Shown piece by piece: positions 1,601-54,665 of a DNA stretch of 64,000 bases. The stretch's first letter is position 1; the number at the start of each line of letters is the position of its first letter. Below the pieces are notes generated by a model. The model was not told where the DNA came from. It saw only the letters and a program-made list of their open reading frames with translations, and did not search any database. The translations under genes were made by a program, and so were the position numbers. Source of the DNA: Microbacterium sp. (lineage in GTDB: Bacteria; Actinomycetota; Actinomycetes; Actinomycetales; Microbacteriaceae); NCBI RefSeq assembly GCF_017305435.1, contig NZ_JAFKIP010000005.1, positions 1-64,000 of the forward strand. Reading direction: 5' to 3'.

Positions 1601-1795
1601 CAGCATTGGCGGCTGACGTTCGCGGAATGGGCTCTCCTCGACAGTGGAGTCAGGTGTGATTCCGATCGAGTGCGCGCGCTCCTACATCTCGATTTCGTCG
1701 AGATCGGGCATCCGGTACGCGTTCTGGACCCTGACGCTGACCTCCGCGAAAGGGCCGGGCGACCCGCTTTCCCCTTCTATTATCCTCCACGATCC
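1601..1795 (+). pseudogene. Degraded NTF2-like (DUF4440) gene fragment
   Basis: An open frame from 1601, preceded immediately by a stop and without a credible start, encodes LTFAEWALLDSGVRCDSDR followed by VRALLHLDFVEIG. This resembles the start of DUF4440/NTF2-like proteins, which typically read EW.L.D..VR.D...V..LLHPDFVEIG. After EIG the resemblance disappears and the frame runs into the HelR promoter. I read it as a truncated remnant; the assignment is by eye. Confidence 0.4.
1778..1783 (+). promoter_or_regulatory. Candidate -10 box of the HelR promoter
   Basis: TATTAT lies 13 bp upstream of the rifamycin-associated element and about 100 nt before the HelR start, in a short AT-rich stretch (CTTCTATTATCC). 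No convincing -35 was found at the usual distance. Confidence 0.45.
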
Positions 1796-1796
1796 C

Positions 1797-1815
1797 GGGC
1801 TTGCGGCAAGGCCCC
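1797..1815 (+). promoter_or_regulatory. Rifamycin-associated element (RAE)
   Basis: GGGCTTGCGGCAAGGCCCC is an inverted repeat (CTTGC-G-GCAAG core with GGG/CCC arms). It matches the published RAE consensus, GGGGCTTGC-G-GCAAGGCCC as I recall it, except for C in place of G at 1796. RAEs lie upstream of rifamycin-inactivating and rifamycin-protecting genes in actinobacteria, including helR, and mediate rifamycin-induced expression. Its position just after the candidate -10 and before the HelR gene fits that role. Confidence 0.85.
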
Positions 1816-1881
1816 CTCAGTGAGGCAGAATCGCTGATCGCGCGCCATTTCGACCAGGCGCACCGATGGCGAGGGAGCGGG

Positions 1882-4086
1882 ATGCCGAGAACCGATGACA
1901 GCACGAGTGCGTTCGCCCTGCCCGAACGTCTGCATCGCAAGACCGACCCCGCGCTGATCGCCGACGACGAGATCCGTTTCGCGGCGATCGGCGCAGCGCT
2001 CGCCGACGACACAGCGCGCACGAGCGCCCGGCTCGATGCTCTCCGCCGCGAACCGGCGTCGGCGGGGCAGCGCGCGCTGGAACGAGACCTCGAGATCCGC
2101 GCCGAGTCCGCGCGCCTGCAGGTGCTGCGGCGTTTCGGGCTCGACGCGTGCATCGGGCGGATGGTCGGCACGGATGGGACGGTGACGTACATCGGTCGGT
2201 TCGGACTCGCGGGCGACGGCGAGGAGCGCCTGCTGACGGACTGGCGGGCGCCGGCATCCGCCCCGTTCTTCGCGGCGAGCGGCGCCGATCCGATGGGCCT
2301 CGCGAATCGGCGGCGCTACCGCTGGCGCGGGGGGCGCGTCGTGGACTACTGGGACGAGGTGTTCGTGCCTGACGGCATTGACCGGACCTCCGCGCTGGAC
2401 GACCAGTCGGCGTTCATCGCGAGCCTCGGCGCGAGCCGCTCGCCGAAGATGAGGGACGTGCTCGCGACGATCCAGTCGGACCAGGATGCGATCATCCGCA
2501 CGAACGCGCGCGGCGCTCTGGTCGTCGACGGCGGCCCCGGGACGGGCAAGACCGTCGTCGCACTGCATCGCGCCGCTTACCTGCTCTACGCTGACGCGCG
2601 TCTGCAGCACGGGAGCGGCGGGCTGCTGTTCGTCGGGCCGCATCGACCCTATGTCGCCTATGTCGACGACGTGCTGCCGAGCCTCGGCGAGGACGGCGCG
2701 CTCGTGTGCGCTCTTGACGACCTCGTCGCCATATCGGGCGACGTCGGGAAGGAGACGGAGGCCGCGGTGCGCCGCGTGAAGGGCGACGGTCGCATGATCG
2801 ACGCGGTCGAGGCCGCGGTGACGCTGTGGCAGCGTCCGCCGCGCCGCGCGCAGGCGATCGAGACCGCGTGGGGCGCCGTCCTCGTGATGCCTGCCGACTG
2901 GGCGGAGGTGTTCGCCGAGGTCGACACCATGCCGCACAACGCCCTGCGTTCCCGGGCGTGGGAGCGCCTGCTCGACCTGGTCGAAGAGCGCATCGACGAT
3001 GACCGCGACGGCGACCGTGACCCGTGGGCGGAGGAGGGCTTCGACGCCTACGGTTCGGGTTGGGACGACGACGAATCGGTGCGCGAGGTGCTGGAGAACG
3101 ACGCCGAGCTGCGCGAGCTGTTCGATCGCGCCTGGCCCCTCCTCGACCCCGACGCGCTGCTGCGCGGACTGCTCACCTCACCCGACATGCTCGCCCGCTG
3201 CGCCGCGTGGATGACTGCCGCGGAGATCGCCGTGATCACCGCCGCCGCGCGCGACCGCGACGCCGCATGGACCGACGCCGACCTGCCGCTCCTCGACGCC
3301 GCGCGGCTCCTGGTCGGCGACCCCCGCGCGGAGGTCCGCGCCCGCCGCGCGCAGCGTGAAGCGGCGGAGGAGAAGCGGATCATGTCCGATGTCGTCACCG
3401 ACCTCATCGCCGCGGACGACGGCGACCTGCGCATCATGTCGATGCTGCGCGGGCAGGATCTGCGCCGCACGCTCACCGATGCCGCGGCATCCCCCTCCGA
3501 TCGCTACGCGGGGCCGTTCGCCCACATCGTCGTCGACGAGGCGCAGGAGCTCACCGATGCGCAGTGGCGCATGTTGCTGCGGCGCTGCCCATCCGGGAGC
3601 CTCACGATCGTCGGTGATCGCGCCCAGGCGCGGCGGGGATTCGCCGAGTCGTGGGAAGAGCGCCTTGCCCGTGTCGGCGTCGCCCGCGTCGCGGTCGCGA
3701 CGCTCACGGTGAACTACCGCACGCCGGAGGAGGTGATGGATGCCGCAGGCCCCGTCATCCGAGCGGTGCTGCCCGACGCGAATGTGCCCACGTCGATCCG
3801 CCGCACCGGCGTGCCCGTGCACATCGGCCGCCGCGCCGAGCTGGCCGCCGTGGTCGCCGAGTGGGAGCGGGAGAGCGGCGACGGCACGGCGGTCGTCGTC
3901 GGCGCGCCGGACTTCGCCCCGAGCGAGCGCGTACTCTCGCTCGATCCCGTGCTCGTGAAGGGGCTCGAGTTCGACCTCGTCGTGCTCGTCGACTCGGAAC
4001 GCTGGGGCGAGGGTCTCATCGGCGCCGTCGACCGCTACGTGGCTATGACTCGTGCGACGCAGCGCCTCGTCGTGCTCAACGGGTGA
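1882..4086 (+). CDS. helR: HelR: RNA polymerase recycling motor ATPase (HelD-like)
   Basis: Superfamily 1 helicase-like ATPase of 734 residues that in its family removes rifamycin-stalled RNA polymerase from DNA and confers rifamycin tolerance. Visible features: the N-terminal coiled region with ALPERLHRKTDPALIADDE, the family block LLTDWRAPASAPFF, Walker A GGPGTGKT (about 217-224), and Walker B VVDEAQELTDAQW (about 549-561) followed by GDRAQARRGF. The acidic insertion around 370-400 fits the HelD secondary-channel arm. The ATG at 1882 has GAGGGAGCGG just upstream; longer in-frame extension would run through the RAE. The RAE upstream strongly supports the HelR subgroup and induction by rifamycins. 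Confidence 0.92.
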   Translation: MPRTDDSTSAFALPERLHRKTDPALIADDEIRFAAIGAALADDTARTSARLDALRREPASAGQRALERDLEIRAESARLQVLRRFGLDACIGRMVGTDGTVTYIGRFGLAGDGEERLLTDWRAPASAPFFAASGADPMGLANRRRYRWRGGRVVDYWDEVFVPDGIDRTSALDDQSAFIASLGASRSPKMRDVLATIQSDQDAIIRTNARGALVVDGGPGTGKTVVALHRAAYLLYADARLQHGSGGLLFVGPHRPYVAYVDDVLPSLGEDGALVCALDDLVAISGDVGKETEAAVRRVKGDGRMIDAVEAAVTLWQRPPRRAQAIETAWGAVLVMPADWAEVFAEVDTMPHNALRSRAWERLLDLVEERIDDDRDGDRDPWAEEGFDAYGSGWDDDESVREVLENDAELRELFDRAWPLLDPDALLRGLLTSPDMLARCAAWMTAAEIAVITAAARDRDAAWTDADLPLLDAARLLVGDPRAEVRARRAQREAAEEKRIMSDVVTDLIAADDGDLRIMSMLRGQDLRRTLTDAAASPSDRYAGPFAHIVVDEAQELTDAQWRMLLRRCPSGSLTIVGDRAQARRGFAESWEERLARVGVARVAVATLTVNYRTPEEVMDAAGPVIRAVLPDANVPTSIRRTGVPVHIGRRAELAAVVAEWERESGDGTAVVVGAPDFAPSERVLSLDPVLVKGLEFDLVVLVDSERWGEGLIGAVDRYVAMTRATQRLVVLNG

Positions 4087-4105: not shown

Positions 4106-4555
4106 CTACTCCCGGGTCGCGACGAGGATCGTCGCCGAGCCGTCCGGCTCGTGCACCTCGATGTCGCATGTGAAGGCTCGGCGCAGCGCACCGGCGGCGG
4201 TGTCCGCCCACACGCGACCCCACGCTGCGATGAGCGCCGCGGGCATCTCGCCCGAGGCGGGGTAGGCCTCGCGCGGCGCTTCGGCGAGGTGGACGGCGGC
4301 GTAGTGCGGCGGCAGGTCCGCCGCGGCATCCACCCCCACGCCGACGACCTGCGTGTATGCGCCAGACTCGTCGGAGTCGTAGTCGAAGAGCGCGGCGTAC
4401 AGGCGCGCGTCGGCGCGCGCGGCCAGGTTCAGCAGTGCGTCGTCGGCGAGCACGCGACCCCACAGGGCGCCCAGCTGCGCGCGCTGCGGATCGGCCTCGG
4501 CGGCGTTCGTCGTGCGGGCGAGATGTCCGATGATGACGGCGGGAAGAACGCTCAC
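4106..4555 (-). CDS. GyrI-like / AraC effector-binding domain protein
   Basis: 149 residues, GTG start. It resembles stand-alone effector-binding domains (YdeE/GyrI-like family): VVGVGVDAAADLPPHYAAVH in the middle, then AALIAAWGRVWA, and a C-terminal RAFTCDIEVHEPD with an ILVATRE strand. These domains bind small hydrophobic ligands or inhibit DNA gyrase in some members; here there is no DNA-binding domain. It converges with HelR 20 bp away and is followed upstream by unrelated genes, so no operon partner is evident. Confidence 0.72.
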   Translation of the reverse strand: MSVLPAVIIGHLARTTNAAEADPQRAQLGALWGRVLADDALLNLAARADARLYAALFDYDSDESGAYTQVVGVGVDAAADLPPHYAAVHLAEAPREAYPASGEMPAALIAAWGRVWADTAAGALRRAFTCDIEVHEPDGSATILVATRE

Positions 4556-4751: not shown

Positions 4752-7568
4752 TCACGGCCGCGCGTTCATACGTCGACGGCGGGCGATCACTATCCCCGCC
4801 GCGCCTAGGGCCAGCAGCGCCGACGCGGCTGCGACGGCAGCCCACGGCGCATGACCGCCGGTCGATGCCAGCGACCCCGCCGGCACGATCGTGATCGCCG
4901 CGCGGATGGGGTCGTGCCCGGCCGAGGTGATCACCAGGGTGTGGGCGCCGGTGGGGAGTGCGGCGGGGATCGTCGCGCGGATCACGACGCGTCCGCTCGC
5001 ATCGGCCGCGGGGATGCCGGTCAGCACATACGGGTCGCTGTGGATCTCAGCGCCGATGACCTGCCCGGGGGCGAGTCTGCTGACGGTGACCAGCAGGGCG
5101 CCGCCCTGCTCGAACCTGCCGTCTCCGACATCCACCGTCGCCCAGGAGCTCGGTGACGCCGAAGAGCTCGGCGACGCCGACGGCGAGCTCGTCGCAGTCG
5201 GCGACGGGCTCGGCGCGAGCGCGACGGCCGCGGTGGAGCCCGACACCCGGGAGACCGGGTGGTAGCCGTCGGCGGTGAGCGAGACCCGCGCGGTGAGTTC
5301 GGCGCCCACCAGCGCGGCGTCCGGTGTGAAGGAGGATGCCGCAGCCCCCTCGATCGCTACACCGTCGGCGAACCACTGGTAGGACAGCGTCGCGCCGGGC
5401 GTCGAGCTGTTCGCCGTCGCCACGAGCTCGGTACCGACGTGCGGATCGCCGGCGATCACGGGGGTGCCGAGCTCGGCATCGCCTGTGGTGTCGAAGCTCT
5501 GCCAAGTGCCGGCGTACTCCACCCGGCCCTGGCTCGGCTTCGTCCAGTCGCACACGCCCGTCGAGAACGTGGCGAGCAGGCGCGTCCACTGATCGTCGGT
5601 GATGCCCGGATAGTCACCGCGCACGGGGGTGGCCAACTGGCATTTCAGCACGTCGCGTGCCAACCCCTCCCCAGCGACGTGCCGGGGCTCCGAGTGATAC
5701 GGGAACAGCTGGTTGCACGTGGAGGTCGGGTTGTCGTAGTCGAGCTGCTCCGAGACGAACCCGTTGTCGGTGTAGCAGCCGTCGCCGAGGCCCGCGGGGC
5801 GCGCGGCGACGGTGCGCTCCCGATCGCCGAAGCCGCCGAGCTCGACGATGTTGTCGAGCCACTCCTCCAGTTTGTTCAACGCATCGCTGTACATGAAGCT
5901 CGAGTACCACGCGTCCTTGCTGGTCCAGCTGACATGGGTGTCGGCGTTGCCGTAGGCGTCCAGCATCCGCTCACGGATGATGGCGCTGCGGTAGCGCTCG
6001 TGGAAGTCGCCGGTGAGGTCGGTGTACTTGCGCATCTCGATGACGGGCGTGTAGGCGAGGCCACCGGTCATCATGTTCACCCGCCCGGTGCGGAAGGCCT
6101 GCTCGATCGCGGCGACGCTCGCCTCGGAGCGGGCGGCGGTGCGGTTGCCGTCGACATCCATGCCGCCGGCCTTCTCGTTGAGCGTGACGAACTGCTCTGC
6201 CGAGATGACGCCGTCCTGGTAGGCCTGCAGACCGTACTGCACGCCGACGTTGTCGGGGATGACGCGCTGGCCGCGGCCCTGGTCGTCGGTGCCGTACACG
6301 TTCTTGACCATGTCGGAGATGGTGCAGCGCAGGCCGTCCGGGTTCGACGTCGACCACCGGTCACCCACGGGGACGGCGGCGTTGCAGCCCGACTTCGGGT
6401 TGTCGACGCCGGTGAACCACGTGAACCCGGTGCAGGTCTGCAGCTGCGCCTGGCCCGTGACGGCGAGCTTCTGGGCGGTGGACCAACCGGCGCCGGCAGG
6501 GGTGCCCCAGAAGTCGAGCAGGTTGACGCAGTCGTGTCCTCCCACGGTGGTGGTGCGCTCGTCGGGGAAGCCGATCTCGCCCATCACGCCGTCGATGATG
6601 CCGGGGTAGTTGTTGGACAGCAGCAGCTGCTGCATCGTGCCGGCGGAGCCGCCGGAGCCGATCGTGTAGACGGGCGGGCCGACCTGCTCGACCACGTGCT
6701 CCTTGACCATCATCGCGGTCTCGGCGCTGGTCACGTCGTTGCAGTTCTGGGCGTAGACGTTGAAGGTGGCGGAGGCGACGATGTAGCCGCGCGAGAGCAG
6801 CAGGTCGTTCTCGACGCCGCCGGTGCCGGTGCCCTGCCAGTAGCCGACGCCGCAGGCGCCGCCGAAGGTGTAGGCGAGCTTGCCGTTCCAGCCGGCGGCG
6901 CGGGCCGTGTAGCTCGGCGCCGGGTCGGTGGGACCGGCGAGCATCGCGGTCTCGTAGACGCCGCGGTTGATCGTTCCGCGCTCGATCCGCACAACGTAGG
7001 GCACCTGGCGGCCCTCGACCGTGGCGGTATTGAGGTTGGCGGGCACGCTGCCGTCGGTCGGGTAGTCGGCCCATCCGCCGCCGGTGGTGCGATAGCGGAA
7101 GGTCACCTTGGGCTCCGCGACGTGGCAGTTCGCGTCGGTCTCGCCGAGGTTCCACGGCGCACCGGAGGCGGTGCAGTACATCGGATGCTGGGGGCCGGAG
7201 AACACGGGCCCGGTGATCGGGTGGTTGGTCACTTCGAGCTTCGTGGTCGCCGAGCCGGACGTGGCCACGAGCTCGCTGACACCCACGGGCAGCCCCTCGA
7301 CCAGGCCGACCAGCCGGCCGTCGACGACGGAGAAGGCGGCGGTCACGTCGCGTCCGTCGGCGGTGACCCGGGCATCGGCATCCGCGCCGGTGAGCGCGAT
7401 GAGCGCGTCCCCGCCGGTGACCGTGTCGGCGCGGCCGGAGAGCACCGACAGAGTGATCTCGTCTGCGGCGACGGCCGGGGGCGCGGGTGCGGCCAGCGCC
7501 GCCATCAAGCCGATCGCGGCAGTCGCGCACACGAGCAGTCGCGCGCGGGATCGTCGTTGTCTGAACAT
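4752..7568 (-). CDS. Secreted, LAxTG-anchored DUF6351 family protein
   Basis: 938 residues from an ATG preceded by GGAGG at 7 nt, favoured over an in-frame ATG ten codons upstream. It carries a signal peptide (RRSRAR, then a hydrophobic run ending AVA-AD near residue 35). The DUF6351 core shows FGGACGVGYWQG, SAETAMMVKEH, GSGGSAGTMQQ (candidate nucleophile Ser near 308, like tannase-type alpha/beta hydrolases) and DNVGVQYGLQAYQDG. Behind it lie an Ig-like repeat (LSYQWFADG), a Pro/Ser/Thr linker, another beta domain and the tail SLASTGG, a hydrophobic segment and RRRR. LASTG fits class E sortase sorting signals, so it is probably wall-attached. The DUF6351 reaction is not known to me; hydrolase is inference. 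Confidence 0.82.
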   Translation of the reverse strand: MFRQRRSRARLLVCATAAIGLMAALAAPAPPAVAADEITLSVLSGRADTVTGGDALIALTGADADARVTADGRDVTAAFSVVDGRLVGLVEGLPVGVSELVATSGSATTKLEVTNHPITGPVFSGPQHPMYCTASGAPWNLGETDANCHVAEPKVTFRYRTTGGGWADYPTDGSVPANLNTATVEGRQVPYVVRIERGTINRGVYETAMLAGPTDPAPSYTARAAGWNGKLAYTFGGACGVGYWQGTGTGGVENDLLLSRGYIVASATFNVYAQNCNDVTSAETAMMVKEHVVEQVGPPVYTIGSGGSAGTMQQLLLSNNYPGIIDGVMGEIGFPDERTTTVGGHDCVNLLDFWGTPAGAGWSTAQKLAVTGQAQLQTCTGFTWFTGVDNPKSGCNAAVPVGDRWSTSNPDGLRCTISDMVKNVYGTDDQGRGQRVIPDNVGVQYGLQAYQDGVISAEQFVTLNEKAGGMDVDGNRTAARSEASVAAIEQAFRTGRVNMMTGGLAYTPVIEMRKYTDLTGDFHERYRSAIIRERMLDAYGNADTHVSWTSKDAWYSSFMYSDALNKLEEWLDNIVELGGFGDRERTVAARPAGLGDGCYTDNGFVSEQLDYDNPTSTCNQLFPYHSEPRHVAGEGLARDVLKCQLATPVRGDYPGITDDQWTRLLATFSTGVCDWTKPSQGRVEYAGTWQSFDTTGDAELGTPVIAGDPHVGTELVATANSSTPGATLSYQWFADGVAIEGAAASSFTPDAALVGAELTARVSLTADGYHPVSRVSGSTAAVALAPSPSPTATSSPSASPSSSASPSSWATVDVGDGRFEQGGALLVTVSRLAPGQVIGAEIHSDPYVLTGIPAADASGRVVIRATIPAALPTGAHTLVITSAGHDPIRAAITIVPAGSLASTGGHAPWAAVAAASALLALGAAGIVIARRRRMNARP

Positions 7569-7681
7569 GGGTCGTCCTCCGATTGACGTCATCGTCATGA
7601 GGCATGCGTCGTTGCACCCTCTCGGGGATGAGAGTAGAAGTAATGCTGACGCTCGTCAACAGAACTTTACATAAGCTTCTT

Positions 7682-8566
7682 TCAGCCGAAGCGCTGAGAC
7701 GTGACGAGACCGTCGAGTCCGGGTGCGATCTGGGCGATATGTGCGCGCACGCGCTCCTCTGCCGCAGGGCCGAGCGCGTTGTAGATGCTGACGAAGGCTT
7801 CGCGGGCGCGCGCGCGGGGCCAGTCCGGTGGCATGAGCGTCATGGGGTGTCCCGGGTCCGCATGACGGAAGGACTGCCACGTGAGCATGAACGACGTGCG
7901 GAGGGCGAGCGCGGCGTGCGGGTGCGGACCCGCGACCACCGGCTCCGTGCAGTCGCCCAGCCTCGCCAGGAACTCCTCGTACTCGCCGCGGAGCGAGGTG
8001 AGGTCCCAGGCCCGCATCGGAGTGTCGCCGGTCGCCACGGTCAGCGCCCCCCGCAGCGACGCGATCTCGAGGACCCCGAGCGACGCGAGCTCGGCGGTGA
8101 TGCGACTGACCGAATCGAAGGGTGAGATCCACACGCCGTCGTAGAGCGGCGCATAGCCGAGCCAGCGCAGACGGGTCCGGGCGGCATGACGGAGTGGGCG
8201 GTTCTTCTCGGGGATCGAGAAGAATATCGCGCTCCACAGGCCGTCCCAATCGGGGTCTTCCTGGCCGAACCGGCGCAGCCAGTCGGCCTCTTCCGTCATG
8301 ATGGCCCGTCCGCGGTCGGTGAGCGCGTGGCTGGTCCGACGGCCCGTCTTGGTCATCTCCAGCAAGCCGCGGTCGGTGAGCCGAGCGAGGGAGGCACGCG
8401 CCGCCGGCGCTTTGACCCCCAGGTCCGCCATCGAGGCGAGGACCGCTCCCGTGGGCAACGACTCGGGGACTCCCCACCAGTAGTCCCCGAAGAGCGTCAG
8501 GATCTGGTGCGCGGGTGAGCGCTTGCGTCCGATCGTGGGCGAAGGAGTCGGCAACGTGTCACTCAC
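7682..8566 (-). CDS. PaaX-family transcriptional regulator
   Basis: 294 residues from a GTG at 8566. PaaX order is visible: an N-terminal winged helix (QILTLFGDYWWGVPESLPTG, then ARASLARLTDRGLLEMTKTG), a central ferredoxin-like part beginning DWDGLWSAIFFSIPE with LRWLGYAPLYDGVWISP, and a C-terminal domain with HPMTLMPPDWPR. PaaX proteins repress phenylacetate-type catabolism and respond to CoA thioesters, but no such genes are nearby, so its target is unknown. The upstream extension to 8815 is not used because it lacks family similarity. Confidence 0.88.
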   Translation of the reverse strand: MSDTLPTPSPTIGRKRSPAHQILTLFGDYWWGVPESLPTGAVLASMADLGVKAPAARASLARLTDRGLLEMTKTGRRTSHALTDRGRAIMTEEADWLRRFGQEDPDWDGLWSAIFFSIPEKNRPLRHAARTRLRWLGYAPLYDGVWISPFDSVSRITAELASLGVLEIASLRGALTVATGDTPMRAWDLTSLRGEYEEFLARLGDCTEPVVAGPHPHAALALRTSFMLTWQSFRHADPGHPMTLMPPDWPRARAREAFVSIYNALGPAAEERVRAHIAQIAPGLDGLVTSQRFG

Positions 8567-8740
8567 CGGCCCATTCTCGCAGCGGATCCCCGGGTTCTTC
8601 CGGTGGCGCGCGCCGACGAGCGGCCTCGCAACGACTGCCACGTGCGAGGCGCGTCGGGCGCACGACGGGCGAGTCCGCAGCCGGCGCCGGCGCTCGTGCG
8701 AACCACCCCCACGCACCATGGGGGTGCCTACGATGGCGGG

Positions 8741-9610
8741 ATGAGAATCGTCCTGACCGGCGCGACCGGGTACATCGGCTCCTCCGTCCTCGCAGCGCTC
8801 GTCGCGCGCGGCCACGACGTGATCGCGCCCGTGCGCAGCGCGGCATCCGCCGCCACGGCGACGGGCGCGGGCGCCACCGCAGTCGTCGGCGACATCACCG
8901 ACGCGTCATTCCTCGTGCCGCTCCTGCAGAACGCGGATGCCGCGATCCACCTCGCCGCGTCGCGCGCGGGCGACGGCCCGCAGTTCGACGGCGCCGTGGC
9001 GGATGCCGTGATCTCCGCCTTCTCCGGCTCCGGCAAGCCCTACGTCCACACCGGCGGCCTGTGGATCCACGGCCCCTCCGACGACCTCACGGAGGAGACG
9101 CCGTTCGCCCCGCCCGCGCTCGTCGCGTGGCGTGAGGGCGTCGAGTCACGCCTCGAGGCGGCCGACCTCGCACTCTCGATCGTGGAGCCCGGCATCGTCT
9201 ACGGGCACGCCGCCGGCATCCCGGCATCCCTTGCCGATGCGCCGAGGGATGCCGAGGGCCGTCTCACGGTCGTCGGTGACGGCACTCAGCACTGGGCGAC
9301 CGTGCACGTCCATGACGTCGCCGACCTCTACGCGCTGATCGTCGAGAGTCCGGTCCCGGCCGGGCGTATGCTCGCGCTCAGCGGACAGAACCCGACGGTC
9401 GCCGAGCTCGGCGAGGCCTTCGCGGGCGGGCCGGTCGTGCCGGAAGGCGCGGATGCCTCGCGCGCCCGCCTCGGCGCGGCCTACGCCGACGCGCTCATGC
9501 TCGACCAGCAGGGCCGCGGCGCGAAGGCGCGGTCGCTCGGCTGGACGCCCTCGCGCGCGTCGCTTCTCGAGGAGATCCGAGCGGGGCACTACGCCGCCGC
9601 GCGCGAGTGA
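8741..9610 (+). CDS. NAD(P)-dependent epimerase/dehydratase family protein (extended SDR-like)
   Basis: 289 residues starting MRIVLTGATGYIGSSV, the GxxGxxG Rossmann motif of extended/atypical SDRs. Further features: VGDITDASFL, AAIHLAASRAG, and HWATVHVHDVADLY typical of the NmrA/epimerase group. The Tyr-x-x-x-Lys pair is not conserved, so it may be an NAD(P)-binding sensor or an atypical reductase. A TACGAT hexamer lies 6 nt before the ATG and no Shine-Dalgarno is seen, suggesting a leaderless mRNA. Confidence 0.8.
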   Translation: MRIVLTGATGYIGSSVLAALVARGHDVIAPVRSAASAATATGAGATAVVGDITDASFLVPLLQNADAAIHLAASRAGDGPQFDGAVADAVISAFSGSGKPYVHTGGLWIHGPSDDLTEETPFAPPALVAWREGVESRLEAADLALSIVEPGIVYGHAAGIPASLADAPRDAEGRLTVVGDGTQHWATVHVHDVADLYALIVESPVPAGRMLALSGQNPTVAELGEAFAGGPVVPEGADASRARLGAAYADALMLDQQGRGAKARSLGWTPSRASLLEEIRAGHYAAARE

Positions 9611-54230: not shown

Positions 54231-54665
54231 ATGGTCCAGCGCAACACCTGGCAACGCGATCGCGTGCGCGAGGCGCTCGGCGACGCCGCGGGTTTCGTCA
54301 GCGCGCAGGATCTCCACGCCGCCCTCCGCGACGACAACACGGGCATCGGCCTCGCGACCGTCTATCGTGCCCTCGCGACGCTCGCCGCGAGCGGGGAGGC
54401 GGATCAGCTCCAGAGCCCCGACGGCGAGGCCATCTACCGCGCCTGTTCCACGACGGGCCACCATCATCACCTGATCTGCCGGTCGTGCGGCAAGGCCGTG
54501 GAGATCGAAGCGCACGAGGTCGAGTCGTGGGCGCAGCGCACCGCGGCGGCCCACGGCTTCACCGAAGCCGAGCACGTCGTCGACATCTTCGGACTGTGCG
54601 CGGCGTGCAGCGCGGCGGCTGCGGCGCCCGCGGCATCCGCCCTCGATCCCGATGCGCGTGCCTGA
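54231..54665 (+). CDS. Fur-family metalloregulator (Zur-like)
   Basis: 144 residues. Winged helix with SAQDLHAALRDDNTGIGLAT and VYRALATLAASGEADQL; metal sites in HHHHLICRSCGKAVEIEAHE and FGLCAACSAAA (two CxxC pairs for structural zinc). The operon partners (permease plus His-rich protein) favour Zur over Fur, but no Zur box was found by eye. TAGACT 7 nt before the ATG, leaderless. Overlaps the next gene by 14 nt. Confidence 0.85.
   Translation: MVQRNTWQRDRVREALGDAAGFVSAQDLHAALRDDNTGIGLATVYRALATLAASGEADQLQSPDGEAIYRACSTTGHHHHLICRSCGKAVEIEAHEVESWAQRTAAAHGFTEAEHVVDIFGLCAACSAAAAAPAASALDPDARA

Follow-up and report, generated by a model that had tools for sequence, protein, structure and literature searches.

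The rifamycin-associated element before a Microbacterium helR gene as a candidate shared −35 core of two divergent promoters

Introduction

Genes for HelR, a HelD-class ATPase, are reportedly controlled by the rifamycin-associated element (RAE) in Streptomyces venezuelae (SVEN_6029) and Mycobacterium abscessus (MAB_3189c). In the accessible text of PMC10719064, the RAE is needed for rifamycin induction of M. abscessus helD, and two promoters, both in the sense direction, are described for M. smegmatis helD: P1 lies some 20 bp ahead of the RAE, and P2 has the RAE over its −35 region; the parts of the published map available in PMC12802891 and PMC10719064 name no antisense promoter. Rox-, Arr- and helicase-type genes of M. 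smegmatis are rifampicin-induced independently of SigB, according to an excerpt of PMC6529629, and an excerpt of PMC12802891 states that the RAE mechanism remains to be elucidated.

A dual-promoter rifampicin alarm has been demonstrated for Bacillus subtilis helD: in the text available from PMC12802891, a slow sense promoter is kept silent by a dominant antisense one, the arrest of polymerase by rifampicin occurs chiefly at the busier of the two, and induction is abolished when the promoters are brought into steric conflict. Two RAE-linked sub-branches have been reported in PMC8655204, which also describes a Nonomuraea strain with a rifampicin-resistant beta subunit and an RAE ahead of a helD gene; a figure legend there names two Microbacterium strains as potential HelR carriers, so that the pairing of RAE and helR is not new. 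Here we examine a 64,000-nucleotide stretch of a Microbacterium sp. genome (the window: positions 1 to 64,000 of contig NZ_JAFKIP010000005.1, assembly GCF_017305435.1), in which a sequence-only reading had recognized an RAE ahead of a HelR homologue.

Results

The RAE-helR locus

The element proposed by that reading, GGGCTTGCGGCAAGGCCCC, is present at 1797-1815; its symmetric register, CGGGCTTGC-G-GCAAGGCCC, starts one base further left (Table 1), with complementary bases in 7 of the 9 arm pairs. Apart from a C at −9, the site fits the consensus derived from the sites aligned in this analysis, and it precedes the helR start by 67 nt, close to the predicted distance of about 70 nt. It is the window's only match to the RAE 20-mer at up to 3 mismatches (0.01 expected from shuffled sequences) and, with 1 mismatch, the sole site of the 3.5-Mb genome within 2 mismatches of GGGNCTTGCGGCAAGNCCC. 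The genome search suggested by the earlier reading returned no further RAE at that threshold; a looser, shorter pattern adds 54481-54497, which does not carry the hexamer pair described below. Since a reversed-pattern control finds two sites at up to 2 mismatches in the same genome, sequence by itself is not decisive at this stringency, and position and conservation carry the argument. A chance palindrome, such as 2-mismatch patterns also produce, is a practically negligible explanation, refuted by the conservation of the element before helR in the genus and beyond.

Table 1. Features of the RAE-helR locus. Coordinates refer to the window; hexamer offsets are counted from the RAE centre.
Feature	Position	Strand	Basis
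RAE, 19-bp imperfect palindrome	1796..1814, centre 1805	.	aligned with 49 genus sites and phylum sites
Sense −10 hexamer CAGAAT, +21..+26, toward helR	1826..1831	+	positional conservation
Antisense −10 hexamer GATAAT, −21..−26, away from helR	1779..1784	−	TANNNT variant, conserved position
Putative sense −35 TTGCGG, 19-bp spacer to CAGAAT	1801..1806	+	inferred from spacing
Putative antisense −35 TTGCCG, 19-bp spacer to GATAAT, overlaps sense −35	1804..1809	−	inferred from spacing
Predicted helR transcription start (+31..+33)	1836..1838	+	inference; M. smegmatis arr start
Predicted antisense transcription start region	1771..1774	−	inference from −10 position
Shine-Dalgarno-like GAGGGAG	1871..1877	+	read from sequence
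helR, 734 aa, uninterrupted, RNA polymerase recycling ATPase; start codon ATG at 1882	1882..4086	+	profile, alignment, tree

The proposed HelR identity is upheld by a score of 988.7 bits against NCBIfam NF041254 (motor_HelR; cut-off 750), compared with 376 bits against HelD_MYCSM (NF041465; cut-off 1051) and a score also far below the cut-off for HelD_BACSU. Residues 35-732, including the GGPGTGKT motif, align with the solved structure 6yxu, which we take to be that of M. smegmatis HelD, a homologue belonging to another subfamily. At the tip of the PCh-loop, described for mycobacterial HelD in the available part of PMC7749160, the pairwise alignment sets AADDGD of the window protein against LMDDED of 6yxu, so that the former would likewise have a PCh-loop reaching the active site with an acidic tip.

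As the sequence-only reading had proposed, a phylogeny was used to ask whether the protein belongs to a clade of HelD proteins that has no link with RAEs. In a quick, midpoint-rooted tree of 79 HelD-class proteins, it lies instead inside an RAE-linked group (SH-aLRT 100), whose 66 rows comprise all 31 RAE-linked proteins of the genus in the tree (the window and 30 others), 33 from other genera and two RAE-less ones of the genus. Four HelD paralogues of the genus (of six fetched, two having failed the length filter) fall outside this group. The window protein has a long end branch (0.94) and an unsure exact place within the 66 rows. With respect to the midpoint root, a second RAE-linked group of 9 rows, mostly from Nocardiaceae, falls on the same side as the paralogues; this agrees with the two sub-branches in the excerpt of PMC8655204.

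HelR exceeds its cut-off in 51 of the 119 genus genomes sampled, and the CTTGN3CAAG core occurs exactly once, just upstream of helR, in the window and in 49 of the 52 other genus helR loci fetched, two of which are partial matches. The helR match is split over frames in L052 (genome G036) and L051 (G090), by decay or sequencing error, and the RAE is kept in both. The window locus is thus an ordinary RAE-helR member, and the novelty considered below concerns the architecture of the RAE, not this copy. By analogy with published relatives, helR is very probably RAE-controlled and would be inducible by rifamycins, and rifamycin tolerance of the host is predicted on the same grounds. The genome has no match to Arr, and its Rox- and Rph-like matches are only far below cut-off.

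Downstream of helR and convergent with it lies a gene for a Cass2-like effector-binding domain protein (4106-4555, −), followed by those for a large DUF6351 (tannase-like) protein (4752-7598, −; 703 bits to Pfam), which ends in LASTG and a hydrophobic, arginine-rich tail resembling a sorting signal, and for a PaaX-type regulator (7682-8815, −). Upstream, a cupin gene (955-1404, +) has its 3' end at a distance of about 370 bp from the predicted antisense start, and an antisense RNA from the putative RAE promoter pair would head toward this gene.

Mirrored hexamers around RAE sites

The exact RAE pattern was detected in 34 of the 396 genomes of a phylum scan and in 177 of the 394 of a class scan; these two scans gave more places than were fetched, and 20 of the rest were examined. 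The comparison comprises, among the matches listed, 179 RAE sites in 176 loci (30 from the phylum scan, 26 new from the class scan and 120 from a further scan). Clustering of open reading frames included wrong frames, so gene classes were redone by tblastn, which among the matches listed classified 166 sites (HelR 77, Rox 54, Rgt 13, Rph 12, Arr 9, MFS 1) and left 13 unclassified. The 166 include the window (L087), L119 and L120 from the same genus, and L165, with rgt and helR on opposite sides; the 152-site phylum counts used below exclude the window, L155 and the helR side of L165. Representatives of Rph, Arr and HelR exceed an NCBIfam cut-off, and those of Rox (332 bits against rif_monoox), Rgt (532 bits against Rgt; both cut-offs 800) and MFS (below all NCBIfam cut-offs shown) do not, so these three labels are by similarity.

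Two hexamers accompany the element at mirrored distances. Among the matches listed, antisense TANNNT lies exactly at −26..−21 in 160 of the 166 classified sites (three more have NANNNT and three another sequence), and sense NANNNT, usually CAGAAT, exactly at +21..+26 in 163, its first base being C in 151, G in 10, and A and T in one each. The exceptions include one-base shifts in L144 (sense) and L178 (antisense), the loss of T6 in L132, L189, where NANNNT is present on the antisense strand only, and L245, which lacks both hexamers. After removal of near-copies, the antisense TANNNT and sense NANNNT frequencies are 98% and 98% at 125 phylum sites (among the matches listed) and 79% and 97% at 40 genus sites; before removal, the genus values are 82% of 49 sites and 98% of 50. 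Backgrounds are near 0.1% for TANNNT and near 2% for NANNNT, and both hexamers together were met at 23 of 240,000 random positions (120 loci, among the matches listed). A further 20 sites came from the genus of G507, which is probably Mycobacterium: the two hexamers occur together in one orientation in 19 of them, and in L280 the antisense hexamer is displaced by one base.

Among the 13 unclassified sites, the exact pair is found in one orientation in L200, L214, L246, L251 and L252, L223 and L228 are partial cases and L239 is truncated; the remaining five (L112, L155, L158, L222, L225) have neither hexamer and are taken for chance RAE matches. The antisense hexamer of the window, GATAAT, recurs in seven genus relatives, with GATAAG in one, and A4A5 is present in all 9 genus rows with G for T1, the window included; these rows probably reflect few independent events. 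Three genus helR loci (L040, L045, L053) have neither an RAE upstream of helR nor the antisense TANNNT; they keep a sense GAGAAT, which precedes a GTG and lies 29-35 nt upstream of the first aligned codon, and L053 has GAGGAT at the antisense place. The two RAE-less loci with full genes form one branch and may thus represent a single event.

Sequence comparison shows that the mirrored hexamers, at a distance exact to the base, are conserved over several gene families and orders. A search of the literature, with the primary RAE and HelR papers outside its scope, found no description of an antisense partner or of the mirror spacing, and this anatomy appears to be new.

Promoter reading of the hexamers

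The RAE likely constitutes a shared −35 core of two divergent, overlapping promoters, each with a 19-bp spacer to its hexamer (Table 1). When both strands of the 40 genus sites were scanned for likeness to TATAAT from −100 to +95, the antisense and sense hexamers ranked first and second (4.21 and 3.85 of 6). In the phylum, the match to the consensus is 3.90 for the sense hexamer versus 3.50 for antisense TANNNT, the latter being also below antisense TATANN at −24..−19 (3.94) and sense TATAGC at −22..−17 (3.73). The direction of the left hexamer is the weak point of the argument, as A2 and T6 belong to the antisense and the sense reading alike; antisense, it scores 3.50 in the phylum and 4.21 in the genus, versus 2.41 and 3.08 when read in the sense direction at −27, and antisense T1 is present in 98% of phylum and 79% of genus sites, the sense reading being C-first; the A4A5 of the nine G-first genus rows likewise favours the antisense direction. 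On these sequence grounds we read it as a putative antisense promoter element.

The same bases could alternatively represent the −10 hexamer of P1 in a tandem pair of sense promoters, P1 to the left and P2 to the right, with the RAE in the P1 leader. Starts of both P1 and P2 have been published for M. smegmatis (available text of PMC10719064), sense TATAGC scores 3.73 in the phylum, and a sense NANNNT stands at −27..−22 in 99% of the 152 sites (among the matches listed), a frequency that follows from the A2 and T6 shared with the antisense reading. A C-first hexamer (86% in the phylum, 97% in the genus) with the lower of the two scores is nevertheless a poor −10 candidate, TATAGC is without T at position 6, and the A at −21, 98% conserved in the phylum, has no role in the −27 reading. 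The published P1 start would moreover need a −10 near −41..−36, where the phylum sites are pyrimidine-rich with no −10-like hexamer, and a tandem arrangement is accordingly unlikely.

An outside reference for the right-hand promoter is M. smegmatis arr, the transcription of which begins 31 bp before its GTG (excerpt of PMC7882622). The comparison was made through the relatives L281 and L287 rather than arr's own locus; with the GTG at +62 in both (counted by hand), the start would be near +31, five bases past the sense hexamer. The published arr start thus fits the sense promoter and sets the RAE upstream of the arr transcript. This bears on the idea that the RAE works in the leader as an attenuator, forming an RNA hairpin, in keeping with its palindromic form and its placement in 5' UTRs in the accessible parts of PMC12802891 and PMC10719064. 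An element upstream of the transcript, as the arr start and the conserved sense −10 both indicate, could hardly do so; in addition, 124 of the 152 sites (among the matches listed) have G:A or G:G at the −6:+6 pair, and 1350-1950 holds no terminator-like site. The hairpin was therefore rejected as very improbable. The generic promoter and terminator scan of 1350-1950, which admits spacers of 16-18 bp and not of 19 bp, returned nothing.

When profiles of the two RAE sides were compared over 18 columns in the exact register, mirror and tandem scores were 0.09 and −0.04 in the phylum and 0.39 and 0.01 in the genus, other registers reaching 0.16 and 0.23, respectively. With mirror scores this weak, the symmetry rests on the hexamers and not on a longer palindrome.

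Conservation nevertheless reaches beyond the −35 hexamers into the palindrome arms, and the outer GGG and CCC are largely kept also in the genus set, which was not selected by arms, a pattern suggestive of protein binding. A dedicated transcription factor dimer could occupy the RAE over the −35 region and be switched by rifamycin or stalled polymerase, the antisense promoter being a by-product, and an unknown factor has been suggested in print (available portions of PMC12802891 and PMC10719064). The centre base agrees with an orientation-free dimer site in the genus (G 27, C 23 of 50) but is mostly G in the phylum (129 to 23, among the matches listed). Such a dimer gives no reason to expect an outward hexamer starting with T at a constant mirrored distance, and the patchy distribution of RAE genes, exemplified by HelR in the genus genomes, would require the factor in every host. 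Moreover, clustering of one longest open reading frame per side, some in a wrong frame, gave no recurring regulator family opposite the RAE and, beyond the five resistance families, no cluster larger than three on either side. We regard the dimer as a serious alternative, though one with clearly less than even odds.

Other RAE loci

Around position 2670 of L165, divergent rgt and helR share one RAE, with helR on the TANNNT side, against the usual rule. In L150, the RAE around 125 is followed by a DHA2-like MFS efflux gene that scores below NCBIfam cut-offs, and a similar open reading frame is located on the antisense side of a helR RAE around 1703 of L179; efflux may belong to the RAE regulon. 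RAEs were also met with arr on a contig titled as a Xanthomonadaceae MAG (L184, around 7636), with rox- or rph-like genes in Chloroflexi MAGs (L175, L188, L205) and with arr in Aerophototrophica (L189, around 4883), where the full hexamer pair is absent; these five represent either transfer outside Actinomycetota or mis-binned contigs. In three genus genomes where HelR is not above cut-off (G084, G024, G030), an RAE with an outward hexamer pair occurs (L072, L081, L260), with a Rox-like match of 36% identity nearby in L260. L265 (G065:C129, near 6355) is an RAE variant with the centre CTTGTGG and the pair TAAATT and CAGGAT, and a HelD paralogue is encoded on the same contig.

Discussion

The explanation that we favour as a whole, with a probability of roughly 0.55, combines RAE control of helR, a shared −35 core and promoter competition. 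The sense promoter (CAGAAT) would drive helR, and an outward promoter (GATAAT) would use the other half of the palindrome; with overlapping polymerase footprints, the two would exclude each other. Without drug the outward promoter would dominate and helR would be kept low, whereas sub-inhibitory rifamycin would tip the balance to the sense promoter, RNA polymerase itself being the sensor, and HelR would then release polymerase blocked by rifamycin, as has been published for relatives. That competition for RNA polymerase at the promoter pair forms part of the rifamycin sensor is a conjecture held at a little under even odds; the stronger form, in which the RAE is no operator but a sensor free of any dedicated protein and rifamycin-bound polymerase flips mutually exclusive promoters, is more doubtful still. 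Against competition, polymerase held up at the antisense promoter would be expected to keep the sense promoter blocked, and in B. subtilis induction was abolished once the promoters were close enough to interfere. The G-first antisense hexamer in the window counts against an antisense promoter at this locus. The polymerase shift may also involve a protein that occupies the conserved GGG and CCC arms.

The mirrored hexamer pair makes the question of the RAE mechanism directly testable and argues against the RAE as leader RNA; together, RAE and hexamers form a longer motif that helps to separate true RAEs from chance palindromes. Were the protein-free sensor true, it would serve at least five unrelated resistance families in Actinomycetota.

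With the published RAE-controlled helR genes, the window locus shares the element, the gene family and a putative P2-like promoter with the RAE over its −35 region, and the antisense partner is undescribed in the portions seen of those reports. Like the helD and pps alarm of B. subtilis, the RAE pair would combine, ahead of a gene of the HelD class, a weak sense promoter with one that reads outward, and it resembles that system in its asymmetry, the gene lying on the side of the C-first hexamer, but not in its geometry. A stronger antisense promoter is favoured by the T-first versus C-first hexamers and by the consensus match in the genus (4.21 versus 3.85), but not by that in the phylum (3.50 versus 3.90). 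Whereas the B. subtilis promoters converge, with 39 bp between their starts, the RAE hexamers are divergent, back to back on a palindromic −35 core that they would share, and in the favoured reading the pair lacks the convergent layout whose gap lets both polymerases bind. If the protein-free sensor is true, the RAE would be a divergent counterpart, of independent evolutionary origin, to the convergent alarm of B. subtilis.
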